Shown here: positions 4,382-62,553 of the stretch, piece after piece
How positions within the stretch are numbered: the first letter of the stretch is position 1
How the letters are laid out: every line of letters starts with the position of its first letter
IMG/VR virus record: IMGVR_UViG_3300029893_000475
Span: 1-62,553 of that record
Length of the DNA stretch: 62,553 nt
Direction: 5' to 3' (one strand)
Source: a virus
Notes under the pieces: generated by a model
The model's input: only the letters and a program-made list of their open reading frames with translations
What the model was told of the DNA's origin: nothing
Databases searched by the model: none
Made by a program: the position numbers and the translations under genes

Positions 4382-6172
4382 TTAGTGTAACCAATTTTTA
4401 CCAACTTTCGGCAAAACTTCCATAGGAACAGTATCTGCGTAATGATTAAAAGCTTTTATCATCTCTTCTTGTACAGCTATTTTTACAGCCTCGGTATCTT
4501 CCGGAGCAACTTCTACCAGAATTTCATCATGTATAGCATTTACAATTTTTGCATTATAGTTATTTTTTACTATTCTATTATTCAATCTTACCAAAGCTAA
4601 TTTTATTGTTGAAGCTCCGCCACCTTGAAAGGGCAGGTTTTTTGCTTGATTAATAGCATGTGCTACAACAGCTTTATTATCCCAATCTATATCATCAAGA
4701 TAAACTCTTCTCCCATCCAAGGGTGAATAAGCATATTTATTAGCTTTAACTTGACTAACCACTGAATCCATAAACTTTTTAACATTTTTGAACACAATAA
4801 AATACCTATCCAAAAGACCTTTTGCATCATCATATGATATTTTTAATTGAGTAGATAATTTTTTTGGACCAGCACCATATAATAATGCAAACGTAATGGT
4901 CTTACATTGATTACGTTCTTTTTTTGTTATACTATGGTAATCTTTATTAAATAGTAAACTAGCCGAGAAGGTATGTAAATCTATATTTTTTTGAAGTGCG
5001 GAAATCATTTGTGGTTCCTGACTTATATGTGCAAGTAACCTTAATTCTTGCCCAGAAAAGTCGGCACTTATAAAATTCCATTCTGGATTTTGAACACCAA
5101 AAGGAGTTCTATATTCTTGTTCTTTTGGAAGATTCATCATATTGGGATCATCAGAACTTATTCTGCCTGTTTGTGCTTTAAGCTGTCTGTATTTAGAATG
5201 TATCCTATTATCTACTTTATGGATATAATCTAAAAAGTTAGCTCCATAAGTTGTAATTTTTTTCTGTTCTTGTCTATAATTTATTAAATCAGCTATAACT
5301 TGATAATCATCTTTATAATATTCTAAATATTTTGCATCTGTACTTGTAAGATCTAATCCAGTTACTTCTCTGAGCCTTGGTAAAAGTTGCTTTGGTGAAT
5401 TGTAGTTTATAATAAATTCAACGTCTCCAAACAAATCTATTGTTTTGTTAGTATCTAGAAAATTTTTAAAATGCATATCTAATTTTTCTTTTGCTTTCTG
5501 CACAGCTTCTTTAGCTTTTTCTTCTAACGGAAGCCATTTATTTTTATCTAAGTAAATCCCGTTTAATGTCATATCACCTAAAACAGGAGCAGTTTCATAT
5601 TCTAGCAATGATAACTCTTCCATATTTCTTGCATTTAGTAATTTTTGTATCTCATAATAAAGAGGTACTAAGTATTCAACATCTTCAGCTGAATATTTTA
5701 ATTGTTCTTCACTGAAGGTATTACCATATTCTTGCTTACTAAAACTTTCTCTGATAGATTTGTCTAGTACCTTACCTAAATATTTTTTAACAACGCTGTC
5801 TAATCCAAAACTTACTTTACTTTTACCTTGATTTAATAATTGTTCACCCAACATCGTGCATTTAGTATTATTTAAAGCAATGTTAAAGTTGCTTTTTATT
5901 TGCATATAATCAAAAATAGAGTTATGAAAAACTTTTATTAATGTTGGTTGATTAATTTCTTTCAAAAATAATTTTATTTTTTCTTTACCTATCTTTGCTA
6001 CATCTATTACATATTGTCTTGAAGTATTACCTATTTGTATTAATAATACTTCACTGGTTAATGGATCTAATGAAGTTGTTTCTGTATCAAACCCTAATAT
6101 AGTCTGTTCCAAAATCCATTTTTTTACATTTTCTAATTGTGAAGTTTCTGTTATATAAAATATATTTGACAT
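4382..6172 (-). CDS. Family A DNA polymerase with 3'-5' exonuclease domain
   Basis: The replicative polymerase of the phage, 596 residues. The N-terminal DnaQ-like proofreading domain has Asp29/Glu31 (FDTET), Asp88 in HNSIFDY and Tyr160/Asp164 (YSAED). The C-terminal palm and fingers show motif A Asp371-Arg378 (DFSGQELR), motif B Arg420...Lys424...Tyr432-Gly433, and motif C His548-Asp549-Glu550. All catalytic residues are present. There is no 5'-3' exonuclease domain, so it resembles phage and mobile-element PolA forms rather than bacterial Pol I. ATG at 6172 is one base from the sigma-factor stop, indicating tight translational coupling. Confidence 0.92.
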   Translation of the reverse strand: MSNIFYITETSQLENVKKWILEQTILGFDTETTSLDPLTSEVLLIQIGNTSRQYVIDVAKIGKEKIKLFLKEINQPTLIKVFHNSIFDYMQIKSNFNIALNNTKCTMLGEQLLNQGKSKVSFGLDSVVKKYLGKVLDKSIRESFSKQEYGNTFSEEQLKYSAEDVEYLVPLYYEIQKLLNARNMEELSLLEYETAPVLGDMTLNGIYLDKNKWLPLEEKAKEAVQKAKEKLDMHFKNFLDTNKTIDLFGDVEFIINYNSPKQLLPRLREVTGLDLTSTDAKYLEYYKDDYQVIADLINYRQEQKKITTYGANFLDYIHKVDNRIHSKYRQLKAQTGRISSDDPNMMNLPKEQEYRTPFGVQNPEWNFISADFSGQELRLLAHISQEPQMISALQKNIDLHTFSASLLFNKDYHSITKKERNQCKTITFALLYGAGPKKLSTQLKISYDDAKGLLDRYFIVFKNVKKFMDSVVSQVKANKYAYSPLDGRRVYLDDIDWDNKAVVAHAINQAKNLPFQGGGASTIKLALVRLNNRIVKNNYNAKIVNAIHDEILVEVAPEDTEAVKIAVQEEMIKAFNHYADTVPMEVLPKVGKNWLH

Positions 6173-6173
6173 A

Positions 6174-6965
6174 TTATAAATATTCTTTTAGTTGATTAGC
6201 ATATTTTTCTTTTAATTTTTCTATGGTTTTTTCTTTAATTTGTCTTACCCTTTCTCTAGTAAGATTCCAATCTACACCTATTTCCTTTAATGTGTAAGGT
6301 CTAAATTGATCTATACCAAAATACATCATTAAAATTTCTCTTTCTCTTTCACTAAAGTCGGTTAATATAAAATCTAATTCTTCTCTTATATTTTCCATCA
6401 TTGTTGCATTATCAATGTATGATGGATCCGGTATAACATTTTTTAAGCTTTTTTCATCATCTGTTACAGGCTCATCCAGATCAATCATATTATAATTGTA
6501 TTTCAGTATATGAGCAACTTCTTCTTGTTCCGAAAATTCTGCAAGTTCTTCGTTTGTTAATTGTCTGCCTAACTCTTGTTCTAATTCTGCTTTTAATTTT
6601 TGAACTTTAGAAATTTCAATAATAACATTTAGAGGTAATTTTATAACTTTTGCATTATCATGTATAGCTTTCATTATGGACTGTTTTATCCACCATACTG
6701 CATATGTTATAAATTTTACATTGTGGTTTAAGCTATATTTTTCAAAAGCTGTAAGCAATCCTAAATTGCCTTCCTGTATCAAATCTTCTAAAGCTAGCCC
6801 CTGATTCTGATATTGTTTTGCAACACTTACCACAAACCTAAGGTTTCTTTTTATAAGTTCTTCATATGCTTTTTTATCTCCAGCTTTAGCTTTTTCTAGA
6901 ACTATGCGTTCTTCTTCCTTTGTAAATGGAGGAAAATTTTTGATTTCTTTTAAGTATATATCCAT
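6174..6965 (-). CDS. Sigma-70 family RNA polymerase sigma factor
   Basis: A 263-residue primary-type sigma factor that would redirect host RNA polymerase to phage promoters. Region 1.2/2 spans about residues 1-105 and includes the core-binding and -10 recognition helix (GNLGLLTAFEKY, then ITYAVWWIKQSI). Region 3 is about 115-185, with the EISKVQKLKAELEQ helix. Region 4, from about 200 to 258, holds the -35 helix-turn-helix (LKEIGVDWNLTRERVRQIK). There is no long region 1.1. Its start overlaps the upstream stop (TAATG). Placed between the ubiquitin-like cluster and the polymerase, it probably controls a later gene class. It is clearly distinct from the second sigma-like gene at 37462. Confidence 0.9.
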   Translation of the reverse strand: MDIYLKEIKNFPPFTKEEERIVLEKAKAGDKKAYEELIKRNLRFVVSVAKQYQNQGLALEDLIQEGNLGLLTAFEKYSLNHNVKFITYAVWWIKQSIMKAIHDNAKVIKLPLNVIIEISKVQKLKAELEQELGRQLTNEELAEFSEQEEVAHILKYNYNMIDLDEPVTDDEKSLKNVIPDPSYIDNATMMENIREELDFILTDFSEREREILMMYFGIDQFRPYTLKEIGVDWNLTRERVRQIKEKTIEKLKEKYANQLKEYL

Positions 6966-7204
6966 TATTTATTACCTGGTTTTAGGTGTTCAACCGAAAT
7001 GTTGTTTTCTATCATTTCACATATTATACAACCTTTTCCAAGTTTTCTTTGTCTACATTTGTCAGGATTTTCCCAATCATGAAAAATTTTATCCCACTTT
7101 AATTGATCTACCCTCATGTCAGTTTGAATATTCCATACTTCTTTAAAATCTTTAGATTGCCTATTTTGTTGCTGATCTTGTTTTGACTTAAAATAAAAAT
7201 CCAT
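6965..7204 (-). CDS. Small Cys-containing protein of unknown function
   Basis: A 79-residue hydrophilic protein with a strong ribosome site (TGGAGGAGAATT) before ATG 7204, which supports it as a real gene. Cys50, Cys59, Cys62 and His73 near the C-terminus could form a small zinc site (Cys-Ile-Ile-Cys core). The N-terminal half is Gln/Lys/Asp-rich. No family was recognised. It lies between the E1-like gene and the sigma factor and overlaps the latter by one base. It could be an accessory of either, for example a sigma-interacting peptide; this is only positional inference. Confidence 0.65.
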   Translation of the reverse strand: MDFYFKSKQDQQQNRQSKDFKEVWNIQTDMRVDQLKWDKIFHDWENPDKCRQRKLGKGCIICEMIENNISVEHLKPGNK

Positions 7205-7221: not shown

Positions 7222-7830
7222 TTATAATGTATGTACAAATTCTGCTGGATTAGGATCACCACGGAGCCAATTTAGTAAATAACTAACTCCATAAGCAGCA
7301 GCATGTATATTACCTCTTTGTATTATATTATTTTCTAGTTCCCAAGCGTTTTGACAACTTCCATTATCTACATCTTCTGTTGGTAGTGTGCTCAGCATAG
7401 ACTGATAAGTATGTTTATTGCTTTTAGCATACACAGCATAAGATTTACCTTCGCTTCTTAGATCTATCCAATAGACATCCGGGTTATCGTTAAAAACATA
7501 ATCAAAAAAAAGTTTCCTAAATTTTGTATTATCTACTGCTGAAATTATACAATCATAATCTGCTAGATTTTTTTTATCTTCAATTTTATTAACATAAGGT
7601 TCCATATTATATCGTGCTGCTATGGTTAATGCTTTAAATTCAAACAAATCTATTTTTTGAAAATTTTGATAAAGTAAGTTTTTATTTTCTACTGTATCAT
7701 AGTCAGCAATTGTTATTTTTACATTTTCATTTATTTGTCCGTTTTCTGTTAATCTATAAATATCTGGTGCCATCCACGAACCTATACCTCCAGCACCAAC
7801 AATCAATATTTTTATTTGTCTTTTTTCCAT
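7222..7830 (-). CDS. E1/ThiF-like ubiquitin-fold activating enzyme
   Basis: A 202-residue Rossmann-type adenylating enzyme of the E1/ThiF/MoeB superfamily, which AMP-activates the C-terminal Gly of a ubiquitin-like protein. Visible features are the nucleotide loop GAGGIGS (residues 12-18), the strand IADYDTVENKNL (41-52), Lys66 in the position of the conserved Lys after the 'NL..Q' segment, and SAVDN (97-101). Cys159 (DNGSCQNAW) lies where the thioester Cys is found in several short bacterial E1s. The usual Arg of the Asn-Leu-x-Arg-Gln motif is Tyr54 here. There is no ubiquitin-fold or rhodanese domain, so it is a minimal E1. It follows the JAB gene by 3 bases without its own ribosome site, so the two are probably coupled. 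It is shorter than MoeB or ThiF (about 250). Confidence 0.85.
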   Translation of the reverse strand: MEKRQIKILIVGAGGIGSWMAPDIYRLTENGQINENVKITIADYDTVENKNLLYQNFQKIDLFEFKALTIAARYNMEPYVNKIEDKKNLADYDCIISAVDNTKFRKLFFDYVFNDNPDVYWIDLRSEGKSYAVYAKSNKHTYQSMLSTLPTEDVDNGSCQNAWELENNIIQRGNIHAAAYGVSYLLNWLRGDPNPAEFVHTL

Positions 7831-7833
7831 AAG

Positions 7834-8307
7834 TTATTCGATGATTAATTTTGAAGGACCAAACTTTTTTTCTCCTTGAAAAATTGCATAGGTAATGTTT
7901 GGATCTTGAGATCCTTCATTAAACCATGCTTTTATGCTATTATATTTATTCGAATATATTATATATATTCCTGCAACTCCGGCCATTTCTATATCCTGCA
8001 ATGATGGTATAGGAGGCCATTTTGGATGGGTATGAAAAACTCCTACTATAGAATATTTAGCTTGCGGATCCAAATGTTTTGTACTCATTAAAACAGAAAG
8101 ATATTCAGATGGTTCCGGAATATATTCAATTTCGTTATTAGGAGAAACGTTATTTATTGGTACAAAATCATGCATTCTAAATATACCAAGTTCCTGGGAT
8201 ATAATATCTCCAACAATTAAACCACAAACTTCTTTTTCTGTAGAAGTTTTTGCGTAATGAATTAATTTATTTAAATTGTCATATGTTAAATATAATTCTG
8301 AACTCAT
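7834..8307 (-). CDS. JAB/MPN (JAMM) metalloprotease, likely Ubl deconjugase
   Basis: A 157-residue prokaryotic JAB-domain protein. The zinc site is complete: Glu26 (EVCGL), His92, His94, Ser102 and Asp105, matching HxH-x7-S-x2-D (VFHTHPKWPPIPSLQDI). JAMM enzymes cleave ubiquitin-like proteins after the terminal Gly. Start chosen at ATG 8307 with ribosome site AGAAAGGATAGAT; a longer frame from TTG 8337 would begin inside the hairpin. No NlpC/P60 domain is fused, so this is not the usual tail-tip peptidase of siphophages. It lies between the Ubl gene and the E1-like gene. The expected role is release of the Ubl from targets, or editing of intermediates. Confidence 0.88.
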   Translation of the reverse strand: MSSELYLTYDNLNKLIHYAKTSTEKEVCGLIVGDIISQELGIFRMHDFVPINNVSPNNEIEYIPEPSEYLSVLMSTKHLDPQAKYSIVGVFHTHPKWPPIPSLQDIEMAGVAGIYIIYSNKYNSIKAWFNEGSQDPNITYAIFQGEKKFGPSKLIIE

Positions 8308-8327
8308 ATCTATCCTTTCTAAAATAG

Positions 8328-8346
8328 AAGGGGGCAAAGCCCCCTT
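8328..8346 (-). terminator. GC-rich hairpin between Ubl and JAB genes (attenuator candidate)
   Basis: A perfect 8-bp stem AAGGGGGC / GCCCCCTT with a three-base loop, strikingly GC-rich in AT-rich DNA. On the minus strand it lies 5 bases after the Ubl stop and about 20 bases before the JAB start, and is followed by CTATTTTAG, only a weak T-tract. It looks like a partial terminator. No new promoter fits between it and JAB, so JAB and E1 would be made by read-through, giving more Ubl than enzymes. Confidence 0.7.
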
Positions 8347-8351
8347 TAAGT

Positions 8352-8609
8352 TTATCCTCCGACTAGGGCATTAGTTAATATTACATACTCAGACGTAATC
8401 AATTTTTCTACAGTTAATGTAGAAGGATTTTGCATTACACCATCAATATATAACCATTTTTTATTGTTATTTGTTTCTTCTTTAATTCTTTCCAGAGCAA
8501 GAGTAGGTATTTCTTCCCATTCATCATGTCCTCTGGAACTAACTATTCTAACTTTAATCTTTTTTTCTATTGTCGAATTAAAGGTATTTAAATCAGTTTT
8601 AATTTCCAT
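8352..8609 (-). CDS. Ubiquitin-like (beta-grasp) protein with C-terminal Gly-Gly
   Basis: An 85-residue protein whose chain ends exactly at Gly-Gly (ILTNALVGG, then stop). Predicted order is a beta hairpin (KIKVRIVSS...DEWEEI, residues about 17-34), a helix (LALERIKEETNNN), then strands WLYIDGV, a Leu-Thr-x-Glu-x-Leu turn and EYVILTN leading into the tail. This is the compact beta-grasp layout of prokaryotic ubiquitin-like proteins. The tail needs no trimming. Ribosome site AGAGGAAATAAT is good. Immediate neighbours are a JAMM protease and an E1-like enzyme, the known partners of such proteins. Whether it is conjugated to proteins or carries sulfur is not decided by sequence. Fold assignment is by pattern, not by alignment. 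Confidence 0.78.
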   Translation of the reverse strand: MEIKTDLNTFNSTIEKKIKVRIVSSRGHDEWEEIPTLALERIKEETNNNKKWLYIDGVMQNPSTLTVEKLITSEYVILTNALVGG

Positions 8610-8625: not shown

Positions 8626-10725
8626 TTAATTTAATGTGTGAACTTCTTTTGCTATAGCACTATCGTTTGTTAGTGCATATAAGCGATTGATCAATTTATC
8701 TGCACCTACTTGTGAAGTAGATTTATCTACTATACATATATATCTGCCGCTGGGATAGTCGTAAACTTTGCAATCCTTATTATCAATGGCGTAAGTTCTT
8801 AATTTACCTTGTATTATATAACCTTCTTTTATAGTAATTTCGTTCTTCATTACTATATCTATTTTTTTAGTAAGATTTAATGTCTTTTCGGTTTCTTCTA
8901 GAAGTTTTTTACTTCTTTCAACGCTTTGTTCATAAGAACTTTTAGCTTCATCTAAGATATATTTTATATCGTCTTTAGTTACATTTTCAACAATACCTTT
9001 ACCTAGCAAAGCATCAATTACAGCACCTAAACTTCTATTTTTACTTAAATTTATAAACTTATTGGTATCATGAATTTTAATTAATTTATTACCCAAATGT
9101 ATATACATCAAATTCTTAATTCTTTCAAGTGGGAAATTTAGGTATAATACTTCTCCTTTTAATCCATCAACCATGAAGTTTACTCCATTTTGTAAATATC
9201 TATGAAATTTTAGCGAACAGCTACTTACATTAGAAAGAAAACTATCAAAATCTTCTTGATTGGTATAACAAACTGCTCTTCTTAAACAATCCTCTACTTC
9301 TTCCTTGTTAATCCTATAATCATTTAAATAAATTTTAGTACTACTAATTCCTAATGAATTAGTAGTCTCTTTTATTTTTATGGTATATAATACTTCACCT
9401 ATTTTACCAGAAGTTTCTTTGTTAGAAACATTTGCGATAAAAGCATCAAATATTATATCCCAATTCAATTTATCAAGTGCATAAGCATTACTAAGTTTTT
9501 TCATAAATATATATGCCCATGAAGGTGAATCATAGATTTCTAACACTTGATTAGCATACGTGATTGAATTTTTTGTTATAGTCACACCATTTATATTTAA
9601 AGTTTTATTATTATTTAAACTTTCTATTTTGGTTTTTAATTTTTTTACCAATTCTTCTTCTTCTTTTTCCTCAGTATGCTTTTTTTGTAAATGTTCTGCG
9701 TATTGTTTAGTGATAAATTTTATATCAGTTGATGTTAGCATTCTTTCTACTTCATGGTTAGTACTATTATATAACCAATCTATAATTTCTAAAGCAGGAA
9801 AGTCTTCTATATCATCCGAAAAAATAAAATCGGCAGCATTCTTCTTTGTGTAAGTACTTAATGCAAGAAGTTTTCTACCAGCATCAATATAATTATATAA
9901 AGGATCTTTATAAGAAAACATAAAAAGTCTTTTTATGGTAGATAATTTATGTTGATATTCTATACAATGTATTAAAGCAAATCTATAATTGTCATATTCA
10001 TACACTGCCTCAACTATGCCTGCCAAGATTGAATGAGTTACAAAATAGTGTTGATTATTTTTCTTAAGATTTAACTTATCAGTTATATCATAATTACTAA
10101 CTTTAGCTTCTGGTACTAACCAATTCATTGCTTCCTTAATAGCATTTCCTTCTTCAACTGTATATTCACTAATTAGTCCAACTTTTTTTTCTTTTAAAGT
10201 TTTAAACGTGCTTTTTATTGATGTTGCTTCTAATACAGGGTCTAGATTATCTAATATTGCACCATTCAATTTAGGTACTGCATAAATCTGTAATAATTTA
10301 AGTTTTTCTACATTCTTTAAAAATTGATCAAAATCTTTTATATCAAAGTGTCTAACTCTTAATATTGTATCCAAACTATAGTGACTAAAAATTTGAAGCC
10401 CTAGTTCAAAATAGGCCTCTAATTTAGAATTTTCTTTATTAGTATTATCTTCATATTTTTCATCTGTATTTATATATATTTCTAATAAATTTTCTGAATT
10501 TTTATAGGATGTGTTGAAATATGCACTATATGTGATAGTTAGCATACCCTTTTTAATAACATAGTTTACTTCATTAAAGTTTCTCAATATTTTAATACTT
10601 TCTAACTTTGCAAGCTGTTGTTTCACCTCCTTTAAAGCTGCCATATTTTTTTGTAAGTCCTGTTTACTAATGTCTAATTTATAGAAATCTACAAATATTT
10701 CTAATGATTCTGGAGTTACTTTCAT
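8626..10725 (-). CDS. Large unknown protein upstream of the Ubl gene
   Basis: A 699-residue protein with a clear ribosome site (AAGGAATTGT) and no family I recognise. It is rich in Lys, Asn, Ile and Leu, mixes alpha and beta segments, and has a strongly charged coiled-coil stretch near residues 345-375 (EEKEEEELVKKLKTKIE). A second coiled coil lies around 588-621 and is followed by a small beta-rich tail. No signal peptide or membrane helix was seen. It precedes the Ubl gene by 16 bases in the same unit, so it could be an Ubl target, an E3-like scaffold or simply a replication protein. No ATPase, nuclease or RING motif was found by eye. Confidence 0.7.
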   Translation of the reverse strand: MKVTPESLEIFVDFYKLDISKQDLQKNMAALKEVKQQLAKLESIKILRNFNEVNYVIKKGMLTITYSAYFNTSYKNSENLLEIYINTDEKYEDNTNKENSKLEAYFELGLQIFSHYSLDTILRVRHFDIKDFDQFLKNVEKLKLLQIYAVPKLNGAILDNLDPVLEATSIKSTFKTLKEKKVGLISEYTVEEGNAIKEAMNWLVPEAKVSNYDITDKLNLKKNNQHYFVTHSILAGIVEAVYEYDNYRFALIHCIEYQHKLSTIKRLFMFSYKDPLYNYIDAGRKLLALSTYTKKNAADFIFSDDIEDFPALEIIDWLYNSTNHEVERMLTSTDIKFITKQYAEHLQKKHTEEKEEEELVKKLKTKIESLNNNKTLNINGVTITKNSITYANQVLEIYDSPSWAYIFMKKLSNAYALDKLNWDIIFDAFIANVSNKETSGKIGEVLYTIKIKETTNSLGISSTKIYLNDYRINKEEVEDCLRRAVCYTNQEDFDSFLSNVSSCSLKFHRYLQNGVNFMVDGLKGEVLYLNFPLERIKNLMYIHLGNKLIKIHDTNKFINLSKNRSLGAVIDALLGKGIVENVTKDDIKYILDEAKSSYEQSVERSKKLLEETEKTLNLTKKIDIVMKNEITIKEGYIIQGKLRTYAIDNKDCKVYDYPSGRYICIVDKSTSQVGADKLINRLYALTNDSAIAKEVHTLN

Positions 10726-10737
10726 TTTTACAATTCC

Positions 10738-11166
10738 TTATTCAAATAGTTTTACTTTTATTGGTTTTATTTGTTCTTTGTCAATTTGTGGTTTTAGGTC
10801 TTCTTCAGTAATAGTACAAGTACTTAGTACAAGATAATTATTTCTATCTGGGTAAACAGCTACTTTTTTACCTATGAAATCGTTTAATTTATCCACCTTA
10901 TAGTATTTCATAAAATGAGCTAACGCAGACATAGGTGATATCCCATCTTTTCCTACTGAATACCAAAGACCTTTTATTTCTTTATTTCCTTCATAATTTT
11001 CAATCCAACAGTCAGATATAGTAAATGTTTTACCATTTTCATCTTCAACAGTAAATTCTACTTTTTCTGAAACTTTATCAGGCATACTTACACTTTTTAG
11101 TCTTATATCTTTAATAGTAACATCTCTATCTAGACTTCCAATTGATTTATTTAAAAAATCTTCCAT
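10738..11166 (-). CDS. Unknown 142-residue acidic beta-rich protein
   Basis: A small protein with alternating strands (VEFTVEDENGKTFTISDCW; KKVAVYPDRNNYLVLST) that suggest a beta barrel. Residues 1-20 are helical and the last 20 are Lys/Ile-rich. It could be an OB-fold nucleic-acid binder, but no signature was identified. It starts 49 bases after the ribonucleotide reductase stop without an obvious ribosome site and is followed after 12 bases by the 699-residue protein gene. The close spacing suggests those two act together. Confidence 0.6.
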   Translation of the reverse strand: MEDFLNKSIGSLDRDVTIKDIRLKSVSMPDKVSEKVEFTVEDENGKTFTISDCWIENYEGNKEIKGLWYSVGKDGISPMSALAHFMKYYKVDKLNDFIGKKVAVYPDRNNYLVLSTCTITEEDLKPQIDKEQIKPIKVKLFE

Positions 11167-11215: not shown

Positions 11216-13768
11216 TTAACACATACTCCAACCACAGTTTGTACAAATTTTACATCCATCCTGGTACTCTAATTTATTAGATTTACAAGATGGACACTTT
11301 ACATTTATCTTTACACCGTTTTTTATATAGCGAGACAGCAATTTTTTTAAGTGAAAAACAAAACTAGATGTTTGATGTGAATATTTATCTAAAACCTCTA
11401 CTATATCTTCAATTTTTATATTGTGTCGTAAAGCCATACCAATTATTCTTGCTATTCTTGTCGTATTTTTCTGGTTTTCATATTTTTTTATTTGTTGTTC
11501 AACTAGATCTTGGGAAATACCTTTTTCTACTAAAAGTTTTTCCATAGAATGTATTAATTCTTCTGTTATTTCATTACTTTCATTATTGTTTGTACTGACA
11601 AATAGAGCATAAGGTTTAGTCAAATTACTATCTACAAATGCAATATTGACATACCATTTTTTCTTATTTCCGTCTTTAATTTTAAAACCTTTAGCAAAAT
11701 ATACATCAGGGATTTTTGTAACATGATGAATTACTTTATCACCGGCTTCTGCGAACTGTTTTTCTAATTCATTTTGATACTCTTTTTCTTTCATAGTATC
11801 TAATACAGCGGTCATAGTACCTTCTCTATAGGTAGTAATTCCTTTAATATTATTTTCCCATGCTAATGAATATAGAGCTTTAAATCCATCATAAGAATAA
11901 TCTTTTGGAAAATTAACGGTCTTAGAATTATTCATATCTGTATAATGAGCAACAATTTTTAAAACATTTATATGGTCTTGTACTGTTAAATCTTGTGTAG
12001 TAGCAAGTTTACCTTGATGTTTTAGTTCTTTAATATTTACATTAGTATTCTTTAAAAAGGTCCAACCATAGTCTTCCACCATAGTGGCCTTTACAAGACC
12101 ACGATTTCTATCAACTTCGTAATCAACATTTTCAAAAGTCCCTTTTAAAATTTGTTCATCTCCCCTTGTTGAAAATTTCATATGTTCTGTTTCAAACCAT
12201 TCACCTTTTAATGGGTTAGGCCATTTAAATCCTTTTTTAATGAGAGCTCTTTTTTCAGCATCATTTACAATAGACCATCTTACATATTCCAATAAAAATA
12301 CAGGTTCTATACCACCACTAACAATTCCTGCATATATACCAGTATTACCTGTAGGGGCATTCATTGACCTATGTGAGTTTCGCATATGACCTATATTTTT
12401 TATGGTTTTTTTAACTTCTTCTGAAATTCTTAAATTTTTCCACCAAAATGTACTAAAATATTTATTTTTATCAAATAACTTGAAACTGCCCTTTTCTTTC
12501 CCTAGTTCTGCTGAAGCTAATAATTCAGTTTCAGCCTTTGATTTATAAATTTTTTCTATTAAATCTAAAGATTCTTCCGACCCATATCTTATACCAAACA
12601 TTAATAACATTGAACCTAATCCCATGTTTCCTAAACCTATGCGTCTCTTTTCTTGTGTAGAATCGGAATATTCTTTTAATGGGGTTCTAGAAATATCATT
12701 TATATTATCTAAAAATCTAATAGCTATTTTTACAACTTTTTTATATTCTTCAAAATCAAAATACAAGGAACCATCATTATTTTGTTTTACAAATTTTGGC
12801 AAATTAATTGATCCTAAATTGCATACACCGGTTGACATACCAATTTCACCACAGGGATTAGTAGCAAATATTTTTTCACAATATGATAATGGATTTAACT
12901 TATTAAAAAGATCCAAAAATATTACACCTGGTTCATTTCTGGTATATGTAGCATACAGAATTTTGTCCCATAATTTCCTAGCTTTAATTTTATCATAAAC
13001 TGTGTACGTATAACCTTTATTTATCCATTCTTCAATATCTCCATTCCATTCTTTATTATAATGGGGGCTTTCTGTATCCGGAAAAATAAGTTCCCAGTAA
13101 TCGTCATTTTTTACAGCTTCCATAAATCCTTCTGTAATGCCAACAGAAATATTAAACTTAGTAAGTTTTCCTGGAGTTTGTTTTGCTGTTATAAAATCCT
13201 CTATTTCAGGATGCCAAACAGAGAGCACTCCCATCTGTGCTCCTTTTCTTATTTTAATTTTTTCGTCCTTTTTTAGGTTTCCTAATATTTTTTCTGAGCC
13301 AGAGGTAATCAGTTCAGAAGATTTATCCCACAGTTCCATAAATTTTATAACTCCGGGAGTCCTGCCTCCAATGCCTCTTACATAAGAACCTGCAGGTCTA
13401 ATCCAGCTAAAATTCATTCCATACCCTCCCTCAGATTTTAAGGTGTGGGCTTGAGCTTTTAACATATCGTATATACCTTCAATAGAGTCTGGATCTGTGT
13501 AATTTATATCTTTTGGATGATGAACATAACAATTAAATAAGGTTGTGGACTTTCTAGAGTCCACACCTAGGTTAGCCATTATTCTACCGCCGGGAATAAA
13601 TTTAAAATCTTCTAATATATAATAAAAGTCATTATATATTTTTTTTCTGTTTTCTGAATTTTCAATTTTTGATGTTTCTCTTGCTAAACGTTTCCAAGTA
13701 TCAGTTATATTTTCATCAAGTGGTGCTTTATAGTTTTCTAACCAAATTTCTTCAGAAAATTTATTCAT
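11216..13768 (-). CDS. nrdJ: Class II (adenosylcobalamin-type) ribonucleotide reductase
   Basis: An 850-residue reductase that makes deoxyribonucleotides from ribonucleotides. Landmarks are redox Cys80 (LFNCYV), the substrate loop GGYGMNFSWIRPAG (114-127), the active-site NPCGE with Cys306/Glu308, CNLGSIN (316-322), and the glycyl-rich phosphate site GNTGIYAGIVSGG. The C-terminus carries a Cys-rich zinc-ribbon-like tail (CPSC...GCKICTNCGWSMC), typical of NrdJ forms, whose Cys residues pass electrons to the active site. No class I small subunit or class III activase gene lies nearby, supporting the B12-dependent class. That would make the phage rely on host cobalamin. Strong ribosome site TGGAGGTTTAAT. 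It lies next to dUTPase. Confidence 0.88.
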   Translation of the reverse strand: MNKFSEEIWLENYKAPLDENITDTWKRLARETSKIENSENRKKIYNDFYYILEDFKFIPGGRIMANLGVDSRKSTTLFNCYVHHPKDINYTDPDSIEGIYDMLKAQAHTLKSEGGYGMNFSWIRPAGSYVRGIGGRTPGVIKFMELWDKSSELITSGSEKILGNLKKDEKIKIRKGAQMGVLSVWHPEIEDFITAKQTPGKLTKFNISVGITEGFMEAVKNDDYWELIFPDTESPHYNKEWNGDIEEWINKGYTYTVYDKIKARKLWDKILYATYTRNEPGVIFLDLFNKLNPLSYCEKIFATNPCGEIGMSTGVCNLGSINLPKFVKQNNDGSLYFDFEEYKKVVKIAIRFLDNINDISRTPLKEYSDSTQEKRRIGLGNMGLGSMLLMFGIRYGSEESLDLIEKIYKSKAETELLASAELGKEKGSFKLFDKNKYFSTFWWKNLRISEEVKKTIKNIGHMRNSHRSMNAPTGNTGIYAGIVSGGIEPVFLLEYVRWSIVNDAEKRALIKKGFKWPNPLKGEWFETEHMKFSTRGDEQILKGTFENVDYEVDRNRGLVKATMVEDYGWTFLKNTNVNIKELKHQGKLATTQDLTVQDHINVLKIVAHYTDMNNSKTVNFPKDYSYDGFKALYSLAWENNIKGITTYREGTMTAVLDTMKEKEYQNELEKQFAEAGDKVIHHVTKIPDVYFAKGFKIKDGNKKKWYVNIAFVDSNLTKPYALFVSTNNNESNEITEELIHSMEKLLVEKGISQDLVEQQIKKYENQKNTTRIARIIGMALRHNIKIEDIVEVLDKYSHQTSSFVFHLKKLLSRYIKNGVKINVKCPSCKSNKLEYQDGCKICTNCGWSMC

Positions 13769-25202: not shown

Positions 25203-25608
25203 CTGTTTTAGATTGGTTATTTTTTAACTGTAAGGCATTTCCAGAAATTCTAAATTCTTCCCAGAAAATTTTTTTATTATTTATAAGCTGTTTTATTTGT
25301 CGTTGTTTTTCACTTAATTGTGAGTTGCCTGTTTTTATTTCAATGAAAACTACTTTATCATCTTCAAAACTAATCAAATCTATAGGCTGCCCTAGGAATT
25401 TTACATTTTTTGGATCATAGGGAAAATTTTGCAAGAAAGGTGCGATTTGTTCCGAAATTTGTCCTAATTTTATTTCGCTACTTTTTTTCTGATTTAGCAA
25501 TTTTTGGTATGATTTGTTCAGTTCGTTTATTTTTTTATTTTTATAATGCACTATAAATATTATTACAAATATATTTATAAGAGCAATTAAAGTCAAATAT
25601 ATAATCAT
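25180..25608 (-). CDS. Predicted HJR-family endonuclease with N-terminal membrane helix
   Basis: A 142-residue protein. Residues 1-22 are a strongly hydrophobic helix (IYLTLIALINIFVIIFIV), followed by a Lys-rich coiled segment (28-60). The nuclease core then follows: LGQPIDLISFEDDKVVFIEIKTGNSQLSEKQRQIKQ, in which the Asp in 'PID' and Glu-x-Lys ('EIK') match the PD-(D/E)xK motif of the 'Endonuc_Holl' family. The membrane anchor is known in this family. It may cut branched DNA near the membrane. It differs from the soluble RecU resolvase in the same unit, so the phage carries two junction-type nucleases. Confidence 0.75.
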   Translation of the reverse strand: MIIYLTLIALINIFVIIFIVHYKNKKINELNKSYQKLLNQKKSSEIKLGQISEQIAPFLQNFPYDPKNVKFLGQPIDLISFEDDKVVFIEIKTGNSQLSEKQRQIKQLINNKKIFWEEFRISGNALQLKNNQSKTDEDKTIT

Positions 25609-27092
25609 TTTATTTTTTCTGGTTTTAAAATTTTATTACAAGTGAAACCACAATAGACACCACATTTTAGCATTCCGTTTGGAAATATGTCTGCAGAATC
25701 CATTATGTAATCTGCCCATGTTTTAAACAAATGTTTTTTATCTAAAGGACATTGTATTCTATTAACTCGTGTTATAGCTTTTTTTAAGCTTTGTTGTTTA
25801 TTTTTAATAATTCCAGATGTTACCAAAATTTCTAAATATCGTTTTAATTCGATAACAGCTTTTTCCGCTTCTTCTGTGAATTTACTTATCATTGATATAA
25901 GTTCTTCGTCAGTAATATTTAAAACTAATTTATCCCTATACACCAGCGGTAAAAGATTATTAATTCTTTGTCTTAAAAGCTCAATTTTTTCCATACTTAT
26001 GTCAGCTCTACCTGTTCCTAGTCTATCAGCTATTCTAAGATCTAATAATGTATGTATATTTTCATTACCAACTTTAGTAATTAATTTTTTTATAGATAAA
26101 TCTGATTTTTTAGGTGAAGCATCAAATAAGTGGTTTGTGACTAATAAAACAACAGTATTTATCACTGCTTTAGGAAACCCCCATCTATTTAGAATCCTTT
26201 CTGCTAAATAGGCACCTACATTTTCATGATTATAAAAATGAATTCCCGTTTTAGTTGTTATTTTTGTGTAGGGTTTGCCTATATCATGTAATAAAGCAGC
26301 AAGTCTTAATATTAATAAATTATTGTTATTTAATTTTATTGAATCCAAAGCTAACATGATATGTTGATATAATTCCAGTCCCACAGCTTTATTAGATTGT
26401 TCTATACCTACACAATTTAGTAATTCTGGAAAAAAGCTATCAAGAATTTTTAAAGTTTTCATCAGGTTAAAAGCTTTACTAGGATTTTCACTTCTTGTGA
26501 GTAAATTAACCATTTCTTGGTAAATCTGTTTCGGATTTACAGGCACTAATCTTAAACTATGCTCTTTTATAGCTTCCTGTGTTTCATAGTCTATATTCCA
26601 ACCAGACCCGAGTATACTAATTATAACAGGAGCTCTTAAAATACGTACCTTTGATTCAAGTATTCTTTCTAATGGATTGCCAACAAATTTTAAGATTTTG
26701 TTTGCTAAATCTTGTTTTCCACCATGAAAATCCAAAAATTTATCTTCTTCTATATCATAATACAATGCATTTATAGTAAAATCTCTGGAGTTTGAATCTT
26801 CTTCTAAACTGCTTGTGTATTCATAATTATAGTAAGTATTTATAAGAACTATCTTTTTTAAAGGGTATACATTTATAGTATTATCTTTAATATTAATAGA
26901 GATTTTATGATTATACTCGTCTATACTAACCATGTTATTTTTGAATTTTTTTCTTAAATTGGCCAATGTTTCATTTACGCATACATCCCAACTATATGGC
27001 TCCTTTCCAATATAAAGATCTCTTGCTGTACCACCACAAAGATAAGGTTTTAAACCTACCGCTTTAAATGTGCTTAATATTATATTTTTCAT
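25605..27092 (-). CDS. CCA-adding enzyme/poly(A) polymerase-like protein with HD domain
   Basis: A 495-residue class II nucleotidyltransferase. The head shows CGGTARD (19-25), the 'RDFTINAL' motif, FHGGKQDL and a helical RNA-binding neck (RILRAPVIISILG). An HD phosphohydrolase domain follows (LLHDIGKPYTK; HENVGAYLAE), as in many bacterial tRNA nucleotidyltransferases. The expected Asp-x-Asp after GGxxRD reads Ser34-Trp35-Asp36, so the first metal-binding Asp is replaced by Ser. Two Cys clusters occur in the last 50 residues (CPLDKKH; CGVYCGFTC), which could bind a metal. It may repair tRNA 3' ends, or have lost that activity. It overlaps the next gene by TAATG. Confidence 0.8.
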   Translation of the reverse strand: MKNIILSTFKAVGLKPYLCGGTARDLYIGKEPYSWDVCVNETLANLRKKFKNNMVSIDEYNHKISINIKDNTINVYPLKKIVLINTYYNYEYTSSLEEDSNSRDFTINALYYDIEEDKFLDFHGGKQDLANKILKFVGNPLERILESKVRILRAPVIISILGSGWNIDYETQEAIKEHSLRLVPVNPKQIYQEMVNLLTRSENPSKAFNLMKTLKILDSFFPELLNCVGIEQSNKAVGLELYQHIMLALDSIKLNNNNLLILRLAALLHDIGKPYTKITTKTGIHFYNHENVGAYLAERILNRWGFPKAVINTVVLLVTNHLFDASPKKSDLSIKKLITKVGNENIHTLLDLRIADRLGTGRADISMEKIELLRQRINNLLPLVYRDKLVLNITDEELISMISKFTEEAEKAVIELKRYLEILVTSGIIKNKQQSLKKAITRVNRIQCPLDKKHLFKTWADYIMDSADIFPNGMLKCGVYCGFTCNKILKPEKIK

Positions 27093-27434: not shown

Positions 27435-27962
27435 CTACTTTTTTATTAATTTACCTAATAAGTGATCGTATTCATGCTGTATTACGATGGCATTAAAATC
27501 CACTTTGCCAAACAGCTTAACAGTAATTTTTTCTAAACTGGTTAAAGTTTGATAAGTTACTGTAACATTTATTTTTCTTTTGCAGCTTTTTCTATATTTA
27601 GGCACACTTAGACATCCTTCCTCTATAGTAACTGTTTGCCCACTTGGCTTAATTAGAGGGTTTATAAGTTCTTGGTAAACATAGTTTGGATTATCCATTG
27701 TACCTATGTTTAAACGTAAGACAAATACTGCAGGACAAGGCGTATCTTTCCACCATATTTGTGGAGCCGCTAACCCCAATGTATTTTGGGAATCTGACAT
27801 AGCAGTGTCCTTTAAATCCTGTACTAATTCCACTACTTCATCAGACCATAAATTGTTATTTCCTTCAACCTCACTTAAGAAAGAAATATTTTCTTTTGGT
27901 AAACAAGGTACACAAGGAATATTTAGAATTTTATTACCATAAATATTTATTTTTCTGACCAT
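27435..27962 (-). CDS. def: Peptide deformylase
   Basis: A 175-residue metalloenzyme that removes the formyl group from the N-terminal Met of new proteins. All three motifs are intact: GLAAPQI (63-69), EEGCLSVP (114-121) with the metal Cys117, and QHEYDHL (162-168) with His163, Glu164 and His167. The chain ends soon after motif III, giving the short C-terminus seen in viral deformylases. It overlaps the helicase by 16 bases. Phage deformylases are known from marine phages, where they are thought to keep protein maturation going during lysis or raise host efficiency. It lies next to another translation-related gene. Confidence 0.92.
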   Translation of the reverse strand: MVRKINIYGNKILNIPCVPCLPKENISFLSEVEGNNNLWSDEVVELVQDLKDTAMSDSQNTLGLAAPQIWWKDTPCPAVFVLRLNIGTMDNPNYVYQELINPLIKPSGQTVTIEEGCLSVPKYRKSCKRKINVTVTYQTLTSLEKITVKLFGKVDFNAIVIQHEYDHLLGKLIKK

Positions 27963-36347: not shown

Positions 36348-37462
36348 TGTCAGCTACAGAATTATTTATATTATCTGATATGAAAAATAGATTATCAGAG
36401 CCACAAAATGAAAATTATTTACAAGAAATTCTTGGTGGTGAGCTTACTCTACAAAAATATGGTCAAATTATAAAACCTTTTATCAAAACTAAAAGTGCTC
36501 CAGATAATTTATCTGATGAAATACATACAAAAGCAAATACAGAAGCCGTTATTATGGTTTTGGAAAAGTCAGGAATTATAAAATATATTACTAATAAATT
36601 TTACCTTTCTTCTATGCAAATGTCTATGAAAGAAAAACTTCAATTAATGGAGACATTTGGTGCTGCAAATATTTCATTTTTTGGAGAAACTGCCAGAGTA
36701 TATACCTTTTCAGCAACAACCATTGATTCTGCTAGTCAAAGTTCTGGGATAGAACGAGGTAAATATTACTATCAAAGCAGTATATTAAAAATGTATAATG
36801 AAGTTCTTAGAGGATCACAACTTATTAAGGAAGATAGAATAGCAGTTATAAAGGTAACCAATCATTTAATATATGGTTATCCATTAAATTTACAGGTTAA
36901 TTATAATGCTTCTAATGATCCTGTTACTTCTTTTGCGTTTAGTTTTGTAGTTGCTGAACATTCATTAGAATTACCAGACGTAGTAACCGAAAAATACTTA
37001 GAAAAAATGTATTCTACTGATGCACATATAAATAATCAAGCTATATTTAATTTTTTACTTAAAATTGATCATCTAATATTAAAAATAAACAACATACTGG
37101 ATACCAGAGTAAATGGTGAAGACTATGGTACAACTGGTACAATAGAATCTGTGCAAAATTCTCCTTTTACTTTTTATAAACATCAGACACAACAAATGAA
37201 AAAAGCTTTCTCCAGTTTATTATTAAGTAATATATCTGCTTTAAAGACTGCTATAGGTAGTGCCCTTGATGGTGAAATTTCTCCTCTGGTTCATTCTAAG
37301 GTGCCTCCACATATATTAGATAAATTACTTGCTTTAATTCCTAACATGTTTGACTCTGAAGAAACATATAATAATGTAGCAACAACTTTAAAAAGTTTGA
37401 GTATTTTAAAAAAAGAATTGATTATATTTAAATCTTATAGAATGAATAGGAGTGTAGATTAA
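36347..37462 (+). CDS. Baseplate-associated structural protein, function unknown
   Basis: A 371-residue protein joined to its neighbours by TAATG overlaps on both sides. N-terminal 110 residues are helical. Residues 110-215 contain beta strands (NISFFGETARVYTFSATTI; LIYGYPLNLQVNYN) followed by a FAFSFVVAEH strand, which resembles baseplate tail-tip attachment modules of Bacillota phages. No catalytic motif is visible. A virion role is inferred from tight placement between the hub-like gene and the baseplate wedge genes. Confidence 0.55.
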   Translation: MSATELFILSDMKNRLSEPQNENYLQEILGGELTLQKYGQIIKPFIKTKSAPDNLSDEIHTKANTEAVIMVLEKSGIIKYITNKFYLSSMQMSMKEKLQLMETFGAANISFFGETARVYTFSATTIDSASQSSGIERGKYYYQSSILKMYNEVLRGSQLIKEDRIAVIKVTNHLIYGYPLNLQVNYNASNDPVTSFAFSFVVAEHSLELPDVVTEKYLEKMYSTDAHINNQAIFNFLLKIDHLILKINNILDTRVNGEDYGTTGTIESVQNSPFTFYKHQTQQMKKAFSSLLLSNISALKTAIGSALDGEISPLVHSKVPPHILDKLLALIPNMFDSEETYNNVATTLKSLSILKKELIIFKSYRMNRSVD

Positions 37463-38184
37463 TGTCAAAAAATATTTATAAAGAGCGAGAAATTGAATTA
37501 TATAATCAATGGAGAATGGGAAAAGAAGAAGCTAAAACCGAATTATTAAGCTCTTTAGAACCATTAATAAAAAAACAAGTTAGTAAATTTTATAATTCTG
37601 GTTTACCTGAATTTGCTATTCGTGCAGAAGGTTATAGATTAGCTGATACAGCTTTAAGTACTTATGATCCTAATAAAGCACAACTAAATACTCATATAAC
37701 AAATTACTTAAAAAAATTAAGTAGATTTGTTACTAATTATCAAAATGTGGGGCATATTCCAGAACCTAGGGCTTTAATGATAGGTAAATATAAGACTATA
37801 TATTCTAATTTAGAATCTTATCTAGGCAGAGAACCGACAGTATTAGAACTTTCTGATGCCATGCAAGTTTCGCCTGCGGAAATTGAAAGATTGCAAACAG
37901 AGCTGCGAGCAGATTTATCTTTAACCTTATCTGAAGAAGATGAAGATGAAGGAGGCTTTTATGAATTTACACAGACTGAGCCAGATCCTAGAGTTAAGCA
38001 AGCAATAGAGGCTGTTTATTTTGAAGCGGACCCGATAGACAAAAAAATACTAGAATATCATTTTGGTTTGTATGGTTCACAAAAATTAAAAAGCAGAGAA
38101 ATCGCAAAAAAACTTAAACTAAATGATGCGGAACTAAAAGCTAGAAAAACTAAACTAAGTAAAGAAATAAACGAGTTAATTTAA
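37462..38184 (+). CDS. Second sigma-70-like protein inside the tail operon
   Basis: A 240-residue protein whose layout follows a small sigma factor. Region 2-like helices span residues about 20-92 (AKTELLSSLEPLIKKQV; DTALSTYDPNKAQLNTHI). A region 3-like unit is at 120-146, with GREPTVLELSDAMQVSPAEI, a segment very typical of sigma factors. A region 4-like helix-turn-helix is at 192-238 (KILEYHFGLYG...SREIAKKLKLNDAELKARK). The aromatic -10 melting residues of region 2 are weak. TAATG overlaps join it to structural genes on both sides. It may be a late sigma, or a sigma-derived protein used in assembly. Confidence 0.75.
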   Translation: MSKNIYKEREIELYNQWRMGKEEAKTELLSSLEPLIKKQVSKFYNSGLPEFAIRAEGYRLADTALSTYDPNKAQLNTHITNYLKKLSRFVTNYQNVGHIPEPRALMIGKYKTIYSNLESYLGREPTVLELSDAMQVSPAEIERLQTELRADLSLTLSEEDEDEGGFYEFTQTEPDPRVKQAIEAVYFEADPIDKKILEYHFGLYGSQKLKSREIAKKLKLNDAELKARKTKLSKEINELI

Positions 38185-61817: not shown

Positions 61818-62553
61818 AAAAACAAGAAGAAGGTTTCTTTTTAAAAAGAAAATTACCTAGTGAGGGTACTACAGGATACTGTGGACCTGTAGGGGTATGT
61901 GGTCCTGTAGGTTTTTGTGGAACAAGAGGTTGGTGTGGACCACAAGGTTATTGTGGTCCATCCGGTCTATGCGGTTTACAAGGTCTTTGTGGTCCTCAAG
62001 GATATTGTGGTCCTCAAGGATATTGTGGTCCATCAGGCATGTGTGGACTACAGGGACCTACAGGATTTTGTGGGCCTACTGGCTATTGTGGTCCCACAGG
62101 TTTCTGTGGTCCATCGGGTCCGTGCGGTTTGCAAGGTGTATCTGGTTTTTGTGGTCCAGCAGGTTATTGTGGTCCGATAGGATTCTGTGGTCCATCGGGT
62201 CCGTGCGGTTTGCAAGGTGTATCTGGTTTTTGTGGTCCAGCAGGTTATTGTGGTCCGATAGGCTTCTGTGGTCCATCAGGTCCATGCGGTTTGCAAGGTG
62301 TATCTGGTTTTTGTGGTCCAGCAGGTTATTGTGGTCCGATAGGCTTCTGTGGTCCATCGGGTCCGTGCGGTTTGCAAGGTGTATCTGGTTTTTGCGGTCT
62401 AGCAGGTTATTGTGGTCCGATAGGCTTCTGTGGTCCATCGGGTCCATGCGGTTTGCAAGGTGTATCTGGTTTTTGTGGTCCAGCAGGTTATTGTGGTCCG
62501 ATAGGCTTCTGTGGTCCATCAGGTCCATGCGGTTTGCAAGGTGTATCTGGTTT
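61805..62553 (+). CDS. Cys-rich collagen-like protein, 3'-truncated by window edge
   Basis: The frame opens with ATG 61805, 13 bases inside the preceding gene, and runs to the window edge (249 codons) without a stop. After a Lys-rich leader of about 20 residues (KKQEEGFFLKRKLPSEG) it becomes an uninterrupted Gly-X-Y repeat. Cys stands in the Y position of about every second triplet (GYCGPIGFCGPSGPCGLQG), four Cys per 27 residues in the last part. Collagen-like stalks are known in phage fibres, but such regular Cys is unusual and would allow dense interchain disulfides or metal binding. The start lacks its own ribosome site and depends on coupling. Confidence 0.85.
   Translation, partial: MPILKKQEEGFFLKRKLPSEGTTGYCGPVGVCGPVGFCGTRGWCGPQGYCGPSGLCGLQGLCGPQGYCGPQGYCGPSGMCGLQGPTGFCGPTGYCGPTGFCGPSGPCGLQGVSGFCGPAGYCGPIGFCGPSGPCGLQGVSGFCGPAGYCGPIGFCGPSGPCGLQGVSGFCGPAGYCGPIGFCGPSGPCGLQGVSGFCGLAGYCGPIGFCGPSGPCGLQGVSGFCGPAGYCGPIGFCGPSGPCGLQGVSG
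62105..62553 (+). repeat. 81-bp in-frame tandem repeat (5.5 copies, continues past edge)
   Basis: Copies start at 62105, 62186, 62267, 62348, 62429 and 62510, exactly 81 bases (27 codons, nine Gly-X-Y triplets) apart. Copies differ by a few, mostly third-position, changes and one Pro-to-Leu change near 62398-62400, so they look recently duplicated. The repeat keeps the frame of the collagen-like gene. Earlier triplets (61880-62100) follow the same Gly-X-Cys-Gly-Pro theme but are more diverged. Confidence 0.95.

Follow-up and report, generated by a model that had tools for sequence, protein, structure and literature searches.

Phages and marine archaeal viruses carry a beta-grasp ubiquitin-like protein (Ubl), an E1-like enzyme, a JAMM protease and an obligate partner, here called Y, that are inherited together. 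The recurrence of this set in both groups suggests that unrelated viruses tag proteins during host takeover, and we consider a viral Ubl protein-conjugation system, either E2-less or assisted by Y, to be the best explanation (probability of about 0.55). A complete Ubl/E1/JAMM set with a constant new partner is thus kept beside an initiation factor gene in viruses of two domains; if our reading is true, these viruses use a ubiquitin-like tagging of their own for takeover. Prokaryotic cellular Ubl systems are known from metabolism, plasmids and defence. Literature searches returned no report of such a system in viruses of comparable kind, and the magrovirus and jumbo-phage papers examined, Philosof 2017 lying outside that scope, mention no Ubl, ThiF or JAB system; a prior mention is possible.

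The locus and its recurrence in related phages

The window, that is the whole 62.5-kb viral record analysed here (62,553 nucleotides), carries the Ubl, JAB and E1 genes on the minus strand, and the three genes and motifs of the original prediction were confirmed. The features of the region are the following.

4382 to 6172, minus strand: family A DNA polymerase (PolA), linked neighbour (DNA_pol_A, 1.5e-89)
6174 to 6965, minus strand: sigma-70 factor, linked neighbour (Sigma70_r2, 7e-18, plus r3 and r4)
6965 to 7204, minus strand: 79-aa protein with a C-x8-C-x2-C...H pattern, between E1 and sigma, conserved in L002 and L004
7222 to 7830, minus strand: E1/ThiF-like adenylating enzyme (E1), 202 aa, Cys159 codon at 7354-7356 (ThiF, 6e-13)
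7834 to 8307, minus strand: JAMM/JAB metalloprotease (JAB), 157 aa from the ATG; a TTG start at 8337 is also possible (Prok-JAB, 1.3e-11)
8352 to 8609, minus strand: ubiquitin-like protein, 85 aa, C-terminal Gly-Gly (invariant G27/G84/G85, AlphaFold2 pLDDT 83, Foldseek against PDB)
8626 to 10725, minus strand: protein Y, 699 aa, no recognised fold, Cys664 codon at 8734-8736, constant partner of E1
10738 to 11166, minus strand: conserved 142-aa protein with no assigned function, between Y and RNR (73-77% identity in L002/L004)
11216 to 13768, minus strand: ribonucleotide reductase (RNR), linked neighbour (Ribonuc_red_lgC, 1.4e-100)

As had been claimed, RNR lies upstream of the trio, and sigma-70 and a polymerase lie downstream; the latter belongs to DNA polymerase family A and is not an RNA polymerase. 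RecU, dUTPase-like and dNMP kinase genes are also found around the trio, and sheath- or tube-like genes stand at one end of the operon (judged by eye). The setting is indeed a replication/transcription operon and not a tail or CBASS locus, and the archaeal viruses repeat the components beside TFIIB and RNR. The trio holds as a cassette, but the conserved unit is larger, since Y, directly upstream of Ubl, had been missed.

The 79-aa protein gave no family match in the Pfam, PHROG, NCBIfam and PADLOC scans and is a possible zinc binder. Small proteins with a CxxC and further C/H ligands adjoin the set in the window (6965-7204), in L045 (3861-4028) and in L036 (3695-3865); in phages and archaeal viruses alike they are possible zinc-finger adaptors. 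Elsewhere the window encodes a CCA-adding/poly(A) polymerase-like protein with an HD domain (25605-27092), a peptide deformylase (27435-27962) and, within the structural gene cluster, a second sigma-like protein (Sigma70 region 3; 37462-38184), and the reading frames at the record end (61917-62528) are highly repetitive.

The homology search in related phages recovered a conserved unit, Y-Ubl-(JAB)-E1. The near-identical contigs L002 and L003 and a third relative, L004, share the order 142-aa protein, Y, Ubl, 81-aa protein, JAB, E1, 79-aa protein, sigma, PolA, dNMP kinase and tail tube, which is that of the window plus one additional small gene (81 aa). Identities to these relatives are 62% for Ubl, 67-71% for E1, 49-50% for JAB and 41% for Y. 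All genes of the set show a dN clearly lower than dS, by which measure the set is under purifying selection; the dN of the 142-aa protein is 0.12-0.18 (L002/L004). In L004 (797-4285 and 10856-11668), judged by eye, the RNR gene has an intein-like insertion and an ORF similar to homing endonucleases splits PolA.

The sigma-70 gene occupies the equivalent position in L002 and L004 and is one gene more distant in L013 and L090. The latter is a contig in a Methanomassiliicoccaceae MAG, yet it has a sigma factor and tail genes; its order is Y, Ubl (ending MGG), JAB, E1, small gene, sigma and PolA, and its JAB reading frame is broken in that contig. L013 has Y, Ubl and E1, with sigma and PolA one gene later, and L014 has Y, Ubl and E1; Prok-JAB is not detectable in either record.

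Properties of the four proteins

Ubl terminates in NALVGG and is alone among the 111 window ORFs of 40-130 aa in having a GG ending; G27, G84 and G85 are invariant in its family (37 members). Its AlphaFold2 model runs strand-strand-helix-strand-strand-short helix-strand and ends in a free tail, meaning a predicted, not solved, beta-grasp fold bb-a-b(b)-a-b with a terminal GG. Foldseek comparison with the PDB gave almost only ubiquitin-family matches, the best being NEDD8, ISG15, ubiquitin and SUMO, with E1-bound NEDD8 at the top (E 1.2e-3, probability 1.00, TM about 0.44). The TM-scores are modest (about 0.4-0.5) and the best E-value misses 0.001; the assignment is nevertheless solid, given the topology and how uniform the matches are, and the model agrees with the original prediction that the 85-residue protein is a Ubl, its predicted fold being like that of ubiquitin/NEDD8. 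At the sequence level nothing exceeded the cut-offs in Pfam, PHROG, NCBIfam and PADLOC, a single-protein search of the phage collection returned no match, and the searches run revealed no significant relation to known Ubls, archaeal SAMP included; the comparison with ThiS was uninformative (10.7% probability). In 17 archaeal Ubls the Pfam model Inhibitor_I24 gave matches (best 1.4e-4), and here the fold search favours ubiquitin.

The claimed GAGGIGS motif and Cys159 of E1 are present: the protein has the GxGGxGS nucleotide loop and the ATP-site K and D of the E1/ThiF superfamily. Among 58 sequences, G12, G14, G15, D43, D45, K50, N51, K66, D100, N101, R105, D123, R125, C159 and Q160 are conserved at 98-100%, with C159, K66, D100, R105 and R125 kept in all of them. 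The NLxRQ of E1/ThiF enzymes reads NLxYQ in all 58 viral E1s, a Tyr replacing the canonical Arg (Y54 in the window). E1 has neither of the two CXXC zinc motifs found in E. coli ThiF/MoeB, its only cysteines being C94 and C159. The invariant C159 aligns with the SC motif of PRTRC ThiF; its correspondence to the catalytic ThiF Cys184 is ambiguous in the alignment.

All residues of the JAMM site (E, HxH, S and D) are present in JAB, whose motif HTHPKWPPIPSLQD corresponds to the predicted H-x-H-x7-S-x2-D; the site is thus intact by sequence and protease activity is predicted. Of the NCBIfam models, the haloarchaeal desampylase NF041370 comes nearest (4.3e-14, below the model cut-off), and the closest solved structures are those of JAMM1 (5lda/5ld9; 9.9e-7 for 5lda). 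JAMM1 and desampylase remove Ubls from proteins, and judged by these nearest relatives JAB is of the deconjugating type.

Protein Y is present in all 54 E1 loci that have more than 5.5 kb of upstream sequence. Its Cys664 is invariant (45/45 sequences), as are G640, N687, D688 and T697 (window numbering). Iterative profile search and synteny connect the phage and archaeal forms of Y, and one hhalign comparison aligned them over 298 columns (90%, E 1.8e-7). Y gave no match above the cut-offs in Pfam, PHROG, NCBIfam and PADLOC, and none when searched in plasmids and phages. Residues 367-699 are modelled with a pLDDT of 90; Foldseek found no PDB fold for this model and matched only three unnamed viral proteins. 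Y is the one component with neither a recognised family nor a recognised fold.

The original prediction had recognised no E2. This stands for the Pfam and NCBIfam scans of the neighbours and for the Foldseek matches shown for Y, none of which contained an E2, and no E3 homologue was found either; what had been overlooked is Y, a partner of E1 with an invariant cysteine. The last 115 residues of Y are predicted to form a helix, four strands, a Cys loop and a helix, which is the order of the UBC/E2 core. We considered Y as an E2, but Foldseek shows neither an E2 nor a PDB fold, the hhalign probability with PRTRC B is 0.3% or less, and no Prok-E2 match occurs among the matches listed for the 45 Y members; E2 homology of Y is therefore not claimed. 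A weak match around the cysteine is to DUF7737, which is found at the C-terminus of long bacterial proteins (E 2.2e-5, below cut-off, in a single genome); hhalign gives it 48% with phage Y and 0.5% with archaeal Y, so that a relation to Y is suggestive only.

The set in magrovirus-like contigs

A single-protein search of viral contigs with E1 returned no match, and the wider family was reached only by searching with an E1 alignment, which gave 73 viral loci. Most of these lie on contigs of marine type that carry TFIIB, class II RNR and a GroEL-type chaperonin (checked on representatives), a content reported for magroviruses/Aoguangviridae (PMC10768690; PMC5332604). From this gene content, not from a tree, we assign them as probably magrovirus-like.

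The usual order, in dozens of these contigs, is Ubl, RNR, Y, TFIIB, E1 and JAB. Among the 54 E1 loci whose upstream sequence exceeds 5.5 kb, 49 have Ubl within the fetched stretch, and it was found in the four of the other five that were searched over the whole record. An initiation factor gene, which is sigma-70 in the phages but TFIIB in the archaeal viruses, and RNR are found beside the set in both groups.

Most distinct archaeal-virus Ubls (27/32) have one or two residues after the GG, and all 27 come from loci with JAB; the Ubls of two JAB-less contigs end exactly at GG. If JAB matures these Ubls, extra residues beyond GG are expected solely in loci that have JAB, as seen; with just two JAB-less cases, the pattern is suggestive of such a role. 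Since the window Ubl already ends at GG, JAB would there act on conjugates. The set is a small, expressible four-protein system in which this distribution provides a natural test of maturation.

Proposed conjugation, its alternatives and known systems

In a conjugation system, E1 would adenylate the GG terminus of Ubl, which may then be held in thioester linkage at Cys159. Transfer of the GG terminus to lysine residues on proteins of the virus or the host would follow, possibly via Y Cys664 or directly, and JAB would trim the Ubls having extra residues (archaeal viruses) and strip Ubl from its targets. From the linkage to sigma-70 or TFIIB we infer that the transcription-initiation machinery is the first candidate target. 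The presence of an initiation factor beside the set in viruses of two unrelated host domains speaks for conjugation; the linkage may also reflect only operon sharing of early genes. Archaea offer a precedent, since Haloferax TBP2 is reported to carry ubiquitin-like isopeptide bonds (PMC4895103). Against conjugation stand the failure to find an E2 or E3 homologue, the two records with no detectable JAB (L013 and L014) and the modest TM-scores and best E-value of Ubl. Y is a candidate for a new kind of E2 or ligase; alternatively, it could act as a sulfur-acceptor enzyme or itself be a substrate. A bolder reading appears unlikely as a whole: it would make Y a non-UBC thioester-transfer enzyme or ligase of a new type, and a Ubl-E1-Y-JAB cascade common to phages and archaeal viruses would reversibly tag basal initiation factors, namely sigma-70 or TFIIB of the virus or its host.

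The main rival is sulfur-carrier chemistry, with parallels in systems of the ThiS/MoaD/QbsE/CysO type. The E1-activated Ubl would become a thiocarboxylate giving sulfur to a nucleotide, tRNA or cofactor, Y being the acceptor enzyme and JAB exposing the GG. An E2-less Ubl-E1-JAB arrangement is indeed the usual prokaryotic sulfur-transfer layout (PMC1779556), E1 also matches ThiF/MoeB models, and the RNR neighbour and invariant cysteines could fit sulfur chemistry. However, the ORFs scanned contained no gene for a rhodanese, cysteine desulfurase, PP-loop ATPase or cofactor pathway, with no thiamin/MoCo gene among those of the window; E1 lacks the MoeB/ThiF zinc motifs, JAB is nearest to JAMM1/desampylase and Y matches no known sulfur acceptor. 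We rank conjugation higher for three reasons: neither an acceptor nor a donor of sulfur was recognised among the genes, the nearest relatives of JAB are deconjugating enzymes, and transcription factor and RNR linkage is seen in viruses of two domains; sulfur transfer is a tentative possibility.

It is very unlikely that the set serves counter-defence, competing with or reversing a host Ubl defence (BIL/Bub/CBASS-II or archaeal SAMP) with JAB stripping host tags. Host Ubl conjugation can block phage assembly (Hor et al. 2024, as cited in PMC12660748), and many deSAMPylases occur in Borg elements; but JAB alone would suffice for this, yet Ubl, E1 and Y are retained together, two contigs have no JAB, and the set sits in a replication/transcription operon. 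The BIL/Bub and type II CBASS (Cap2/Cap3) systems share with the viral set a homologous E1 domain (Cap2, BubCD) and a JAB. The viral set differs in being virus-encoded and in having no CD-NTase and no E2 (UBC) domain, which places it outside these E2-dependent systems.

A PRTRC-type operon moved into a phage is an extremely improbable origin, even though the plasmid PRTRC system (operon type 6d of Iyer et al. 2006) likewise has separate genes for Ubl, JAB and a ThiF-like E1. The comparison made in the original prediction holds for E1: its best NCBIfam match is PRTRC_ThiF, hhalign aligns 174 columns (99.4%) and pairs Cys159 with the SC(Q/S) cysteine, and the plasmid-borne cellular proteins related to E1 are PRTRC ThiFs (25-31% identity). 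Yet the score of 58 bits is far under the cut-off of 144.75, and by profile E1 is a distant PRTRC-ThiF homologue. The comparison fails for Ubl, JAB and Y, which stay below 1% probability against PRTRC C, A, B, E and F (0.1% for Ubl with PRTRC C, and 0.1% for JAB with the one PRTRC A, a JAB with JAB-N, compared); no match to PRTRC B (E2-like), E or F was obtained, and the PRTRC Ubl tail is of KG type where the viral one is GG. A tail-assembly module like lambda TAPI/TAPK, in which a phage Ubl and JAB serve tail maturation, is scarcely credible: the best PHROG matches of JAB are tail proteins, but the lambda genes are tail genes with no E1, and the viral set has a separate E1 and no NlpC domain, lies outside the tail module and is conserved in a replication operon in several lineages.

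The archaeal SAMP/UbaA/HvJAMM1 and JAMM1 systems also combine Ubl, E1 and JAMM with no E2, and it is to JAMM1/desampylase that the viral JAB is nearest; in contrast, the viral genes are clustered with Y in a viral operon and the viral E1 is not of UbaA type (below cut-off). Adjacent JAMM-motif and E1/ThiF genes exist in other phages too (crAss001 gp77/gp76; Salmonella phage Arash gp247/246), but neither Y nor a stand-alone Ubl of the viral-set family was detected there. Such pairs, annotated structural or hypothetical, were seen in L007 (the Arash pair), L006 and L009 (Vibrio phage D69). In crAss001, a JAMM-motif gene immediately precedes gp76 (L005, 4491-5648), and the N-terminus of this E1 contains ...GIIIQTAIVGGSTYAP, which is like the C-terminal tail of archaeal-virus Ubls (Ubl profile E 0.068) and is possibly a Ubl remnant or part of a Ubl-E1 fusion.
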